From Aureimonas sp. AU20 (lineage in GTDB: Bacteria > Pseudomonadota > Alphaproteobacteria > Rhizobiales > Rhizobiaceae), in NCBI RefSeq assembly GCF_001442755.1, contig NZ_CP006367.1:1922001-1986000 (forward strand): a stretch of DNA of 64,000 nucleotides. Direction: 5' to 3'. The notes below the pieces were generated by a model, which saw only the letters and a list, made by a program, of their open reading frames with translations, was not told the origin of the DNA and ran no database searches. Below, in pieces: positions 40,717 through 50,682 of this stretch (position 1 is the first letter of the stretch; every line of letters begins with the position of its first letter). The position numbers and the translations under genes were made by a program.

Positions 40717-42063
40717 TCAGGCCGCTCGGCGCACCGGGCGGCTCGGCTGAGCCGTCGTCTCGCCGGGGCCAGGCAGGCGCGACAGGAAGGTGAAGGCGAG
40801 CACGGCCGACAAGGCCATGAAGCCGCCGACGATCGTCATGGGAACGCCATAACCGCCGGTCCAGTCCTTCACCGCGCCGGTGATGTAGGGAGCGGCAAAG
40901 CCCGCCATATTGCCCATCGTGTTGATGAGCGCGATGCCGGCCGCCGCGCCCGCGCCGGTGAGGAAGCGGGCTGGGAAGCTCCAGAAGTTCGGCAGCGCCG
41001 AGAAGATGGCGCAGGCCGTGAGCGTGATGACGGCGATCGTCGCGGTCGGGCTCTGCATGGAGAGCGCGAGCGGAATCGTCACCGCACCGAGCACGGCGGG
41101 AATGCCGATGTGCCAGGGTCGCACGCCGCGACGCGAGGCATCCCGGCTCCAGAGAATGAGAGCGACGGCCGCCGGGAGATAGGGGATCGCGGTGATCAGC
41201 CCGCGCTGCATCACGGTGAACTTGGTGCCGAACTGAGCCTCGAAGCCGCCGATGATGGTCGGCAGGAAGAAGCCGAGCGCATAGAGCCCGTAGATAAAGC
41301 CGAAATAGATGAGCGCGAGGGTCCAGACGCGGCCGTCCCGCAGCGCCTTGCCGGAGATGTGGCCGCCCGAGGACTTCGTCTTGTCCTCGCGGGCCAGCTC
41401 TTCGTTCAGCCAGGCGCGCTCGGCCGGTGTCAGCCATTTGGCGTCGTTCGGCGTGTCCGGCAGGTAGAAATAGGTGACGATGCCGATGATGATGGCCGGG
41501 ATTGAGACGCCCGCGAACATGACGCGCCAGCCTTCGAGGCCGAAGAGCCCGTGCATGTCGATCAGGAGCGAGGCGAGCGGCGCGCCGATCACCGTGGTCA
41601 GCGGCTGCGCGACATAGAACACGGCCAGGACCTTGGCGCGGTGGCGCGCCGGAACCCAAAGGCTGAGGAACAGGATCGCGCCGGGAAAGAAGCCGGCCTC
41701 GGCGATGCCGAGCAGGAAGCGAAGCCAATAGAGCTGTGTGCCGGTCTGCACGAAGGTGAAGAGCAGCGAGACGATGCCCCAGCTCACCATGATGCGCGCC
41801 AGCCAGCGCCGCGCGCCGAACCTGTGAAGGGCGAGGTTGCTGGGAATTTCCAGGAGGATGTAGCCGAAGAAGAAGATGCCGGCGGCGAAGCCGAACTGCG
41901 CGGCCGTGAGACGGAGATCCTGAGTCATGCCGTTAGGACCGGCGAAGCCGATGGCGGTCCGGTCCAGGAAGTTGATGAAGAACATCAGTCCGAGAAACGG
42001 CACCAGCCGCCAGACGATCTTGGAAATTGCCGATGTCTCAACATCGGATTGCACTGCTGCCAT
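40717..42063 (-). CDS. MFS transporter, anion:cation symporter type, in the apiose cluster
   Basis: A 448-residue transporter of the ACS group (phthalate, glucarate, tartrate permease relatives). LVPFLGLMFFINFLDRTAIGFAGPNGMTQDL is the typical start; FFFGYILLEIPSNLALHRFGARRWLARIMVSWG and RFLLGIAEAGFFPGAILFLSLWVPARHRAK follow (only parts quoted). It is the last gene of the oiaX-oiaK unit, so it probably imports D-apiose, apionate or a related sugar acid. The substrate is inferred from context alone. Confidence 0.85.
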   Translation of the reverse strand: MAAVQSDVETSAISKIVWRLVPFLGLMFFINFLDRTAIGFAGPNGMTQDLRLTAAQFGFAAGIFFFGYILLEIPSNLALHRFGARRWLARIMVSWGIVSLLFTFVQTGTQLYWLRFLLGIAEAGFFPGAILFLSLWVPARHRAKVLAVFYVAQPLTTVIGAPLASLLIDMHGLFGLEGWRVMFAGVSIPAIIIGIVTYFYLPDTPNDAKWLTPAERAWLNEELAREDKTKSSGGHISGKALRDGRVWTLALIYFGFIYGLYALGFFLPTIIGGFEAQFGTKFTVMQRGLITAIPYLPAAVALILWSRDASRRGVRPWHIGIPAVLGAVTIPLALSMQSPTATIAVITLTACAIFSALPNFWSFPARFLTGAGAAAGIALINTMGNMAGFAAPYITGAVKDWTGGYGVPMTIVGGFMALSAVLAFTFLSRLPGPGETTAQPSRPVRRAA

Positions 42064-42163
42064 GTCTGCCTCCTCCTTCAGGGCAAGCGCGGTCGTTCCG
42101 CCCGAGCATGTCGGGCGGTCGCGTTTCGTCGGGTCTTCGGTCTCGGTGCGGATGGGAGAGGGG

Positions 42164-43492
42164 TCAGACCCCGTCGCGAATCCGCACGAAATAGTCGTCG
42201 TGGCCGACCTGGCCGCCCTTCAGCGCGATCTCCAGCCCGTGGAAGGCGGGGTTCTCGCTATGGGCGGTGGACACGGGCGAGCCGGGTGTCTCGGCCAGCG
42301 GCATGCGCGGCGTCAGGGCATGGACGCCGAGCTGGCGCAGCGCGTGGCTCGACGTGTCGCCGCCCGCGATCACGGCGCGCGACAGGCCGGCCCCGCGCAC
42401 GAGATCGGCCTGCAACCGCCCCAGACCGCGCCCGATCGCATGGCGCGCGCCCTCGTTGCCGGCGATCTCGGCGCCGAGATCGCTCTCTGGCCCAAGCGCG
42501 GTGTAGACGATGACGCTTTGGCCCGCCGCCAGGTGCCCGAGCGCCTGCGTGCGGGTGGCTTCGATCCCCGCGCTGTCGCCGGCCACGAAAAGGCGCGGGT
42601 CGAGGGCGATGGCGGTGAACCCTTGCGTTTCGGCAAAGCGGATCTGGCGCTCGGTGGTGGGGGAGCAGCTTCCCGAAACCACGGCGAGGCGCTCAACGGG
42701 CTCCAGCGGGTCGAAACCGCCGGCTTCCGTGATCGTCCCATCCTCGCGCCAGCTTTCCGCCAGCGCATACTCGACGCCGGACGAGCCGACCACAAAGCGC
42801 GAGCCCTTGGCCGCGAGGCGGCGAAGCTGCCGCCCGGCGGCGCGCTGCGTAGCGGGGTCGAGCACGTCGATCAGGAGGGCGCCCGGGGCGGACGCCAGGG
42901 CCGCGTCCACCCGCCCGTCGGCCTCGCCGTCCGTAAGCGCGAGATGGTCGAGGAGGGCGATGGAGACGGCGGTCTGTTCGGCGAGATGCCGGCGGAGGTT
43001 CGCCTCGTGCATGGGGGTGACGGGATGGCGGCTCATGACCGGGTGCCGGTCGATGCGGAAGACCTCGCCGCGATAGGCGGCGAAGAGCTCGCCGAAGGCG
43101 GTGTAGCGCTTGAGCTGCGGCGCGCCGACGAGGATCGGCACGGGCAGCCCGCCGAAGGCGGCATGGCCGATCTCCAGCGCGCGGCCGATGGAGCCGATCG
43201 CGGGCGAGGAATCGAAGGTCGAGCAGACCTTGTAATGGGCGATTTCCGCGCCTTCCGAGGCCATCCAGAGAAAGACGGGCGTCAGGTTCTCGTCCATCCA
43301 GCGCGGCGTTTCGCTGCGGCTCGTGCCCGCGACTCCGATCGCCCGGGCATGGGGAAAGCGGGCGCGCTGGGCTTCGGTCGGCACGTCGAGGAAGAGAACG
43401 GTCTCGACGCCGCGTAGCGCCAAGGCCTCCATCACGTCGGTCGAGCCGGTGAGATCGTCGCCGTAGAAGGTGAGAAGAAGGGGGCTCGTCAT
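42164..43492 (-). CDS. oiaK: 3-oxo-isoapionate kinase, four-carbon acid sugar kinase family
   Basis: A 442-residue kinase of the DUF1537/OtnK family. The N-terminal domain begins LLLTFYGDDLTGSTDVMEALALRG, a family signature; KVCSTFDSSPAIGSIGRALEIG is the substrate loop; the C-terminal nucleotide domain has LAVVSGSCSPTTERQIRFA and VIAGGDTSSHALRQLGVHAL. Start MTSPLLLTF with GGAG upstream. It lies 20 bp downstream of oiaX. In the D-apiose pathway this enzyme phosphorylates 3-oxo-isoapionate to its 4-phosphate, the substrate of OiaX. The specific name rests on the neighbours as well as family. Confidence 0.85.
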   Translation of the reverse strand: MTSPLLLTFYGDDLTGSTDVMEALALRGVETVLFLDVPTEAQRARFPHARAIGVAGTSRSETPRWMDENLTPVFLWMASEGAEIAHYKVCSTFDSSPAIGSIGRALEIGHAAFGGLPVPILVGAPQLKRYTAFGELFAAYRGEVFRIDRHPVMSRHPVTPMHEANLRRHLAEQTAVSIALLDHLALTDGEADGRVDAALASAPGALLIDVLDPATQRAAGRQLRRLAAKGSRFVVGSSGVEYALAESWREDGTITEAGGFDPLEPVERLAVVSGSCSPTTERQIRFAETQGFTAIALDPRLFVAGDSAGIEATRTQALGHLAAGQSVIVYTALGPESDLGAEIAGNEGARHAIGRGLGRLQADLVRGAGLSRAVIAGGDTSSHALRQLGVHALTPRMPLAETPGSPVSTAHSENPAFHGLEIALKGGQVGHDDYFVRIRDGV

Positions 43493-43512
43493 GGCAGGCT
43501 CCATTCGGGTCG

Positions 43513-49757: not shown

Positions 49758-49881
49758 GGATCGTCCTCCCGAGACTCTCGACGGCGAGCGATCGGCCGTC
49801 TTCGGCTACGCGATCCTCGACTCGAGCGCTGCCTCCCCGCAGCGGTGACGTGACAATGACAATCCTCGGTTTTCTCGTCAA

Positions 49882-49902
49882 CTGGTATAATGAGTTTGCC
49901 AG
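49882..49902. promoter_or_regulatory. Second copy of the apiose GntR operator
   Basis: CTGGTATAAT at the left and CCAG at the right, with spacing identical to the perfect site at 44862; outer bases extend it to a CAACTGG/CCAGTTG dyad. It lies upstream of the permease remnant and apnO-apsD-apnL, so the local GntR protein probably controls both arms of the cluster. Confidence 0.65.
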
Positions 49903-49917
49903 TTGGATGATTGAGGA

Positions 49918-50682
49918 TCAAGCGTCCTGCGGCCAGTTGGCTTGGGTGAAGACGCCGCCGTCGACCCAGAGCGTCTGCCCGGTGACGAAGCCGGCGGCCT
50001 CGCTGGCGAAGAACAGGACCGGGCCGGCGATATCCTCGGCCGTGCCGGCGCGGCGCAGCGGAGTGATGCGGCCCCAGCTGGCGGCATAATCTGGCGCTTC
50101 CTGAAGCGTGCGCTCGTTGAGGATGGCGCCGGGCGCCACGCAGTTGACGCGAATGCCATGGGGCCCAAGCTCGGCGGCCGAGACCTTGGTCAATTGCTCG
50201 ATGCCGCCCTTAGAGGCCGTGTAGTCCACCAGCTTGGGGAAGGCGAGCTTGTTGCAGCCCGAGCCGATATTGACGATGGCGCCGCCTTTCCCGGCTGCCA
50301 CCATCCGCCGAGCGGCGGCCTGCGTGTTGAGGAACGTGCCTTTCAGATTGGTCGCGATGACTCGGTCCCAATCCTCCTCCGCGAGGTCGAGAAGCGAGCT
50401 CCAGGTTTGGATGCCGGCATTGTTGACGAGGACGTCGGGTGCCGAGCCGTGCCAGCGCTCCGCCGCATCGAAAAAGGCGTTGACCTCGGCCGATCGCCCC
50501 GCGTCGCATTCGAGCCCCAGCGCCCGGGCGCCGATAGCTTCGATCTCGCTGACGAGCGACGCCGACGCCGTTTCGTCCAGCTTGTAGCTGAAGGCGACGG
50601 CGTGGCCCGCCTTGGCGAAGGCGACGGCGAGATGCCGCCCGATGCCCGTGTTGCCGCCCGTCACCACCGCCAGCTTGGTCAT
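49918..50682 (-). CDS. Short-chain dehydrogenase/reductase
   Basis: A 254-residue classical SDR. The cofactor motif is VVTGGNTGIGRHLAVAF, NNAG occurs in VLVNNAGIQTW, and the catalytic Ser-Tyr-Lys are in NIGSGCNKLAFPKLVDYTASKGG. The ending FVTGQTLWVDGG is typical. GGAG lies upstream of the ATG at 50682. It is transcribed toward the second GntR operator and ends 15 bp before it. It could act on an apiose-related polyol or sugar, but this is unproven. Confidence 0.85.
   Translation of the reverse strand: MTKLAVVTGGNTGIGRHLAVAFAKAGHAVAFSYKLDETASASLVSEIEAIGARALGLECDAGRSAEVNAFFDAAERWHGSAPDVLVNNAGIQTWSSLLDLAEEDWDRVIATNLKGTFLNTQAAARRMVAAGKGGAIVNIGSGCNKLAFPKLVDYTASKGGIEQLTKVSAAELGPHGIRVNCVAPGAILNERTLQEAPDYAASWGRITPLRRAGTAEDIAGPVLFFASEAAGFVTGQTLWVDGGVFTQANWPQDA

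Follow-up and report, generated by a model that had tools for sequence, protein, structure and literature searches.

Whether a single gene cluster can take the plant sugar D-apiose all the way to central metabolism, and by which branch of the known pathway, is the question raised by a locus of Aureimonas sp. AU20. In the 64,000-nucleotide stretch of the genome that we analyzed (the window), positions 40717..50682 carry intact open reading frames (ORFs) for a major facilitator superfamily (MFS) transporter, the kinase OiaK, the RuBisCO-like protein (RLP) OiaX, a GntR/FCD regulator, the lactonase ApnL, the dehydrogenase ApsD, the oxidoisomerase ApnO and an SDR oxidoreductase. The initial annotation had named a five-gene D-apiose cluster here; all of its genes were found intact, and both the assignment to D-apiose and the five enzyme names are upheld by homology. 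Judged from sequence, the locus is very likely a regulon for D-apiose catabolism and belongs to the OiaX branch, with a route split between two contigs, control through two candidate operators and a deleted importer (Table 1).

The genome (5.21 Mb in nine contigs) encodes one RLP. The host is an Aureimonas, and the nearest named OiaX, at 98% identity, belongs to Aureimonas sp. AU40, whose cluster lies outside the loci compared here. Two samples were used: the best 80 of 425 confirmed OiaX relatives from a scan of named genomes, with full 10-kb flanks in 73 of the 80 and Aureimonas providing 15 of the first 20 loci, and 21 genomes of the genus (G000 to G020, the genome of AU20 being G000).

Table 1. 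Features of the D-apiose locus, with positions in the window and the basis of each assignment
Feature	Position	Strand	Basis
MFS transporter, anion:cation symporter type	40717..42063	-	PF07690 149 bits
OiaK, 3-oxo-isoapionate kinase (DUF1537-type), alternative start 43492	42164..43504	-	NF042436 best family
OiaX, RuBisCO-like 3-oxo-isoapionate-4-phosphate decarboxylase	43513..44784	-	NF042437 766 bits, tree, motifs
Candidate operator 1, CTGGTATAATCATCATACCAG	44862..44882	.	Perfect 7-7-7 inverted repeat in the gap separating oiaX from the divergent regulator gene
NanR-subfamily GntR/FCD regulator, probable cluster repressor	44942..45655	+	PRK03837 326 bits, cutoff 260
ApnL, D-apionate lactonase	45643..47568	-	NF049900 834 bits, cutoff 750
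ApsD, D-apiose dehydrogenase (Gfo/Idh/MocA)	47574..48602	-	PF01408; best solved chain 5uhw
ApnO, D-apionate oxidoisomerase	48668..49495	-	PF16896 258 bits; best solved chain 5t57
ABC permease C-terminus remnant, two frames	49534..49711	-	tblastn against the A. ureilytica NS365 permease
Solute-binding protein remnant, residues 1-49	49713..49862	-	Adjoins permease remnant; 57% identity
Candidate operator 2	49882..49902	.	12/14 arm positions; precedes the former ABC operon
SDR oxidoreductase, neighbor outside the conserved cluster	49918..50682	-	PF13561

The RuBisCO-like protein most likely removes CO2

The intermediates follow the published D-apiose pathway. By homology, ApsD would convert D-apiose to D-apionolactone, ApnL would open the way from the lactone to D-apionate, ApnO would give 3-oxo-isoapionate, and OiaK would yield 3-oxo-isoapionate 4-phosphate, on which OiaX is predicted to act. 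ApnL passes its curated model (Table 1). The best solved chains for ApsD and ApnO are 5uhw (1.6e-151) and 5t57 (3.7e-136), which we take to be structures of ApsD and of an ApnO, respectively. Among the 80 relatives of the OiaX locus, OiaK and the regulator were each found in 79, ApsD in 74, ApnL in 72, ApnO in 70, an apiose-type solute-binding protein (SBP) in 59 and the MFS transporter in 7.

The D-apiose pathway with its OiaX (decarboxylase) branch was reportedly described by Carter et al. in 2018 for Agrobacterium radiobacter K84, a strain that we take to belong to the R. rhizogenes species. The Xanthobacter-type enzyme is called OiaT, and its products are 3-phosphoglycerate and glycolate. 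According to a passage of one study, the RLP of K84 decarboxylates 3-oxo-isoapionate-4-phosphate, while the Xanthobacter RLP catalyses its transcarboxylation/hydrolysis (PMC6302742). As far as this passage goes, the Xanthobacter autotrophicus branch shares with the window an RLP as the last step and the same substrate; the RLP of the window, however, fits the OiaX model and is the sole RLP in its genome.

Scored with the curated model NF042437, which bears the NCBIfam name of a decarboxylase, the window RLP passes the cutoff of 700 bits and comes close to OiaX of R. rhizogenes (790 bits). Five other Aureimonas RLPs were collected, two of which were scanned (40-42% identity) and scored 416-419. 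A tree of 25 rows, consisting of the window RLP, 15 hand-chosen from the 80 loci, the five other RLPs and four form I RuBisCO-like sequences, united the 16 OiaX rows in one clade (99/93) with the window RLP inside it; all five other Aureimonas RLPs fell outside, grouping at weaker support (86/71). In the alignment, none of the 16 OiaX rows has lost the KDDE motif or the loop-6 Lys, but all 16 carry QFQ where RuBisCO has HIH; both histidines are retained in the five other RLPs. The full set of RuBisCO carboxylase active-site residues is thus absent from the OiaX rows: the positions that are presumably H325 and H327 in RuBisCO numbering lie in QFQ, and the presumed S379 is C or G.

An OiaT-type transcarboxylase/hydrolase at this position would yield 3-phosphoglycerate and glycolate, the products given in the initial annotation, and would require no further isomerases. 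We consider this very improbable. The RLP does adjoin OiaK and ApnO, as expected of OiaT, and keeps the catalytic Lys, Asp and Glu, but it scores above the equivalog cutoff where the two RLPs outside the clade reach only ~417 bits, the OiaX rows form a separate clade, and isomerase homologs lie within the operons of 10 of the 80 relatives. Taken with the passage cited above, the model score and these isomerases oppose the earlier product claim. The RLP belongs to the OiaX equivalog and was not placed in the OiaT branch, in a comparison that was one-sided in using the OiaX model and a reference set free of OiaT-labelled sequences. From its sequence, the RLP of the window most likely removes CO2 rather than producing 3-phosphoglycerate.

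Candidates for the last two steps lie on another contig

Decarboxylation leaves a C4 ketose phosphate, after which the isomerases LerI and DerI are needed. OiaX would give L-erythrulose 1-phosphate and CO2, LerI would convert the former to D-erythrulose 4-phosphate, and DerI would convert this to D-erythrose 4-phosphate, which would enter the pentose phosphate pathway by way of transketolase. The cluster is therefore incomplete alone, and the statement that its five genes provide every step to central metabolism has to be withdrawn. The genome's only RpiB-like gene, located at the end of a 489-kb contig (C2), passes the DerI model NF051858 (262 bits, cutoff 240) and lies near a transketolase, an aldolase and a second gene resembling triosephosphate isomerase (TPI), our LerI candidate. 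Near DerI on C2 we also noted a spore photoproduct lyase family protein (locus L085, 7072-8136; TIGR03886, 584 bits, above cutoff).

Around the OiaX relatives, DerI was found in 22/80 loci, a TPI-like gene in 21/80 and both in 20/80. In the 10 loci mentioned above the isomerase homologs are on the same strand, the first of them starting 21-23 nt after oiaK (nine loci) or oiaX (L080). Within the genus, the same 18 of 21 genomes have all three of OiaX, DerI and the second TPI (identities of at least 74%, 62% and 53%, respectively), and the other three genomes have none of them.

Two candidate operators accompany a NanR-like regulator

The regulator had been called FadR-type; the GntR/FCD family is correct, but the subfamily is NanR (Table 1). 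Its best PDB match is NanR 6on4 (4.6e-40), and NanR presumably binds GGTATA repeats. In the intergenic region between the regulator gene and oiaX is a perfect inverted repeat, CTGGTAT-N7-ATACCAG, which is the sole zero-mismatch site in the genome. The second candidate operator precedes the point where the SBP gene once began and is now the nearest one upstream of apnO-apsD-apnL. Allowing up to two mismatches, the genome holds these two sites, one GC-rich site on contig C4 and no others. At three mismatches fewer sites are found for the pattern than for its control (32 versus 97), so weaker sites carry no meaning.

The operator is conserved: ahead of oiaX, 68 of 80 loci have a site that matches 11 or more of the 14 arm positions, compared with ~0.5% of 2320 control windows, and the remaining 12 loci score 8-10. 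In each of three further loci (L202, L205 and L206), a search allowing up to three mismatches gives exactly two sites, located as in the window. These observations would fit a model in which the NanR-like regulator controls two predicted units, oiaX-oiaK-mfs and apnO-apsD-apnL, by binding to the two CTGGTAT-N7-ATACCAG candidate operators.

The cluster has lost an ABC importer and retains an MFS transporter

The decayed ABC permease described in the initial annotation is real and is part of something larger, the scar of a ~4-kb importer deletion. The cluster of Aureimonas ureilytica NS365 has the same genes in the same order, and positions 38001-50682 of the window align with it at ~80% nucleotide identity outside the deletion. 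Between SDR and apnO, however, NS365 keeps genes for an SBP, a DUF2291 lipoprotein, an ABC ATPase and a permease, all of which the window is without; whole-locus and junction alignments put the loss at ~4 kb plus ~80 nt. What is left of the permease corresponds to residues 266-302 and 329-355 of the NS365 protein (62% and 93% identity by tblastn), and what is left of the SBP to residues 1-49, with 63% identity over residues 2-49 and one stop. The NS365 SBP matches the solved chains 5ibq (2.4e-148), which we take to be an apiose complex, and 4ry0 (4e-148). The D-apiose ABC importer is thus represented in the window cluster by remnants only; it is a typical feature of such clusters, not an essential one, given the number of relatives with the SBP. 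We propose that the ancestral importer was deleted and that the deletion spared the second operator. Because one of the two candidate operator copies was spared, apnO-apsD-apnL probably stay regulated.

The layout, suspected earlier to be a variant, is one: the ABC importer is deleted and the MFS gene is kept as the only transporter gene remaining in the cluster. The OiaX-branch system of K84, represented in our comparison by R. rhizogenes OV677, shares ApsD, ApnL, ApnO, OiaK, OiaX and a divergent GntR regulator with the window. It differs in that the window has lost the ABC importer and has the MFS carrier, in the gene order of the catabolic operons, and in the isomerases, for which the window has candidates on another contig and OV677 has neither within its 10-kb flanks. 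Among NCBIfam models, the MFS protein comes nearest to the D-galactonate transporter TIGR00893 and to HpaX but stays below the cutoff of either (272 bits against 395 for the former, 269 against 615 for the latter); PDB matches include sialin (8.3e-13) and a D-galactonate transporter (1.2e-6). A second copy of the lost importer was sought elsewhere in the genome, and the next best SBP is only 48% identical; it lies in a tetritol-like locus described below and could still carry apiose.

Transporter content varies among the 18 genomes with oiaX. Taking at least 82% identity for the MFS and at least 87% for the SBP, both were present in G017, G019 and G020, the MFS alone in G000-G003 and G006, the SBP alone in G007, G009, G011, G013, G014 and G015, and neither in G004, G012, G016 and G018. 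In G009 and G014 the SBP and oiaX are on different contigs, and the SBP match in G019 has one TGA and an uncertain N-terminus. In two of the genomes with neither transporter, neighbors of the cluster were scanned: two of five in G012 (L193) are an iron-siderophore-type binding protein and an ABC ATPase, and one of four in G004 (L195) is a TctC-type receptor.

Does the cluster still serve D-apiose?

Several findings weigh against a complete D-apiose route. OiaK scores 455 bits with NF042436 where the cutoff is 700. This value was dismissed as the mark of a different kinase, as R. rhizogenes OiaK scores only 471; the shortfall looks like the effect of a strict cutoff. Neither ApsD nor ApnO has an NCBIfam equivalog match above cutoff. 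The LerI candidate passes generic TPI models only, so its role rests on operon analogy and co-occurrence, and 60/80 loci lack one or both isomerases within the flanks. The co-occurrence may in turn stem from tetritol catabolism. AU20 has a tetritol/erythritol-like locus (L187, G000:C1:2908000-2927900) with two FGGY kinases, an LsrR/DeoR-like regulator, ABC genes and two G3P-dehydrogenase-like proteins, one well above cutoff; since this locus could explain retention of the isomerases, co-occurrence alone is no proof of a LerI/DerI role. EryH and EryI are presumably homologs of LerI and DerI. The Brucella erythritol route is described as using EryH, which gives D-erythrulose-4-P, and EryI (PMC5468441). 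The C2 locus has no matching operator with up to three mismatches, and membership of its lerI and derI candidates in the same regulon was accordingly dismissed. Finally, with the ABC genes lost, the cluster has at most a candidate importer for D-apiose.

The state of the transporters suggests two other explanations, in which either D-apionate has become the main substrate, entering through the acid-type MFS while ApsD and ApnL turn redundant, or the whole cluster is decaying and growth on D-apiose is no longer supported. The apionate explanation, which we regard as unlikely, is favored by the sugar-acid symporter type of the MFS, by its position next to apnO in three relatives (L012, L020 and L030) and by the deletion of the apiose-type importer. 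In addition, with G020 as outgroup, ApnL has 99 changes unique to the window compared with 35 unique to G019, and ApsD 26 compared with 9. With G017 as outgroup, however, the ApsD excess is gone (13 compared with 14), and closeness of G019 and G020 or recombination may explain it. Pairwise ratios of nonsynonymous to synonymous substitution rates (dN/dS), computed with an in-house Nei-Gojobori script, also speak against redundancy. For pairs including the window they are 0.12-0.17 for ApsD, 0.22-0.25 for ApnL, 0.05-0.06 for ApnO, 0.13-0.15 for OiaX and 0.15-0.19 for OiaK, and ApsD is alike in a pair with the MFS only (G001 and G003, 0.116), a pair with both transporters (0.123) and a pair with neither (0.128). 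The pair with the ABC importer only (L008/L016) has higher ratios in all six genes compared (ApsD 0.303, ApnL 0.513) at similar dS, which indicates that dN/dS varies between pairs for other reasons. Moreover, G001 and G003 retain apsD and apnL although they have the MFS only; in each of the two, a single stop falls within the matched part of the MFS gene, and the open frames measure 460 and 437 aa. The MFS genes of G019 and G017 and the ApnL gene of G017 were left out of the dN/dS comparison for internal stops that probably reflect fixed-length extension, the frames being open. Decay of the entire cluster, to which the importer scar points, appears improbable to a greater degree: all five enzymes and the regulator have intact genes, both operators are preserved, and dN/dS is well below 1 in each of the eight genes for which a window pair could be evaluated, although a recent loss would not yet show. 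Decay of ApsD and ApnL following ABC loss likewise left no clear sign in dN/dS, and both genes are intact; a change confined to the lineage of the window may be too recent for these ratios to reveal. On balance, the sequence comparisons suggest that apiose still enters these cells, which would count against a pure apionate role, and we continue to favor a D-apiose regulon. A broader suggestion, which we make tentatively and hold to be rather unlikely, is that in several Aureimonas lineages an acid-type, proton-coupled MFS took the place of the ABC sugar importer under the same regulator, and that the cluster turned to scavenging D-apionate, or a mixture of apiose and apionate.

Neighboring genes and other RuBisCO-like loci

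The initial annotation also included a convergent SDR, a glycerol kinase (GlpK) and a Rieske reductase in the layout. These genes are adjacent but are not part of the conserved cluster, and the SDR gene, rather than being convergent, points the same way as apnO-apsD-apnL and diverges from the glycerol kinase gene. With a threshold of 60% identity, one of the 80 loci (73 with full 10-kb flanks) has the SDR, and none has GlpK or the Rieske reductase. Outside these loci, the SDR adjoins the cluster in G019 (L202, 89%) and the Rieske reductase in G020 (L205, 75%), and the two neighbors are thus common to the nearest relatives only. GlpK and the Rieske reductase are without dN/dS values. The glycerol kinase ORF (50895-52262) ends ~40 residues short of the family model, and sequence resembling the missing C-terminus follows its stop in the same frame.

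Other RLP genes of the genus lie in different surroundings. A second RLP cluster, with an RLP 39-40% identical to OiaX, is present in L188 (G019), L191 (G014) and L192 (G009). L188 and L192 share a glyoxalase-like gene next to the RLP, L191 and L192 share a kinase resembling OiaK (34%, Pfam-checked in L192), and L188 also has TRAP transporter genes and a LacI-like regulator. Another RLP (41-42%) occurs in L189 (G006, 9844-14031) and L190 (G016). Its neighbors in L189 are ABC genes, a xylose-isomerase-like TIM barrel and a protein resembling ApnO (51%), and the group may form a route for some related branched acid. In four Aureimonas genomes (L112 in G005 and L118-L120 in G001-G003), sequences with motifs like those of form I RuBisCO were seen.

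Implications

The pathway is known, and the locus adds a new member with a pruned layout, in which the substrate of the MFS is the remaining point of interest. A plant association of the genus is plausible; in a limited collection of literature, we found nothing linking apiose with Aureimonas. If Aureimonas does scavenge D-apionate, this acid would perhaps be supplied by other apiose-oxidising microbes. The predicted end products are corrected to CO2 and erythrose 4-phosphate, in place of 3-phosphoglycerate and glycolate, and this alters which mutants and assays would be informative. With the conserved inverted repeat, the apiose regulon gains a candidate operator, and the natural deletion of the importer makes the substrate of the MFS directly testable.

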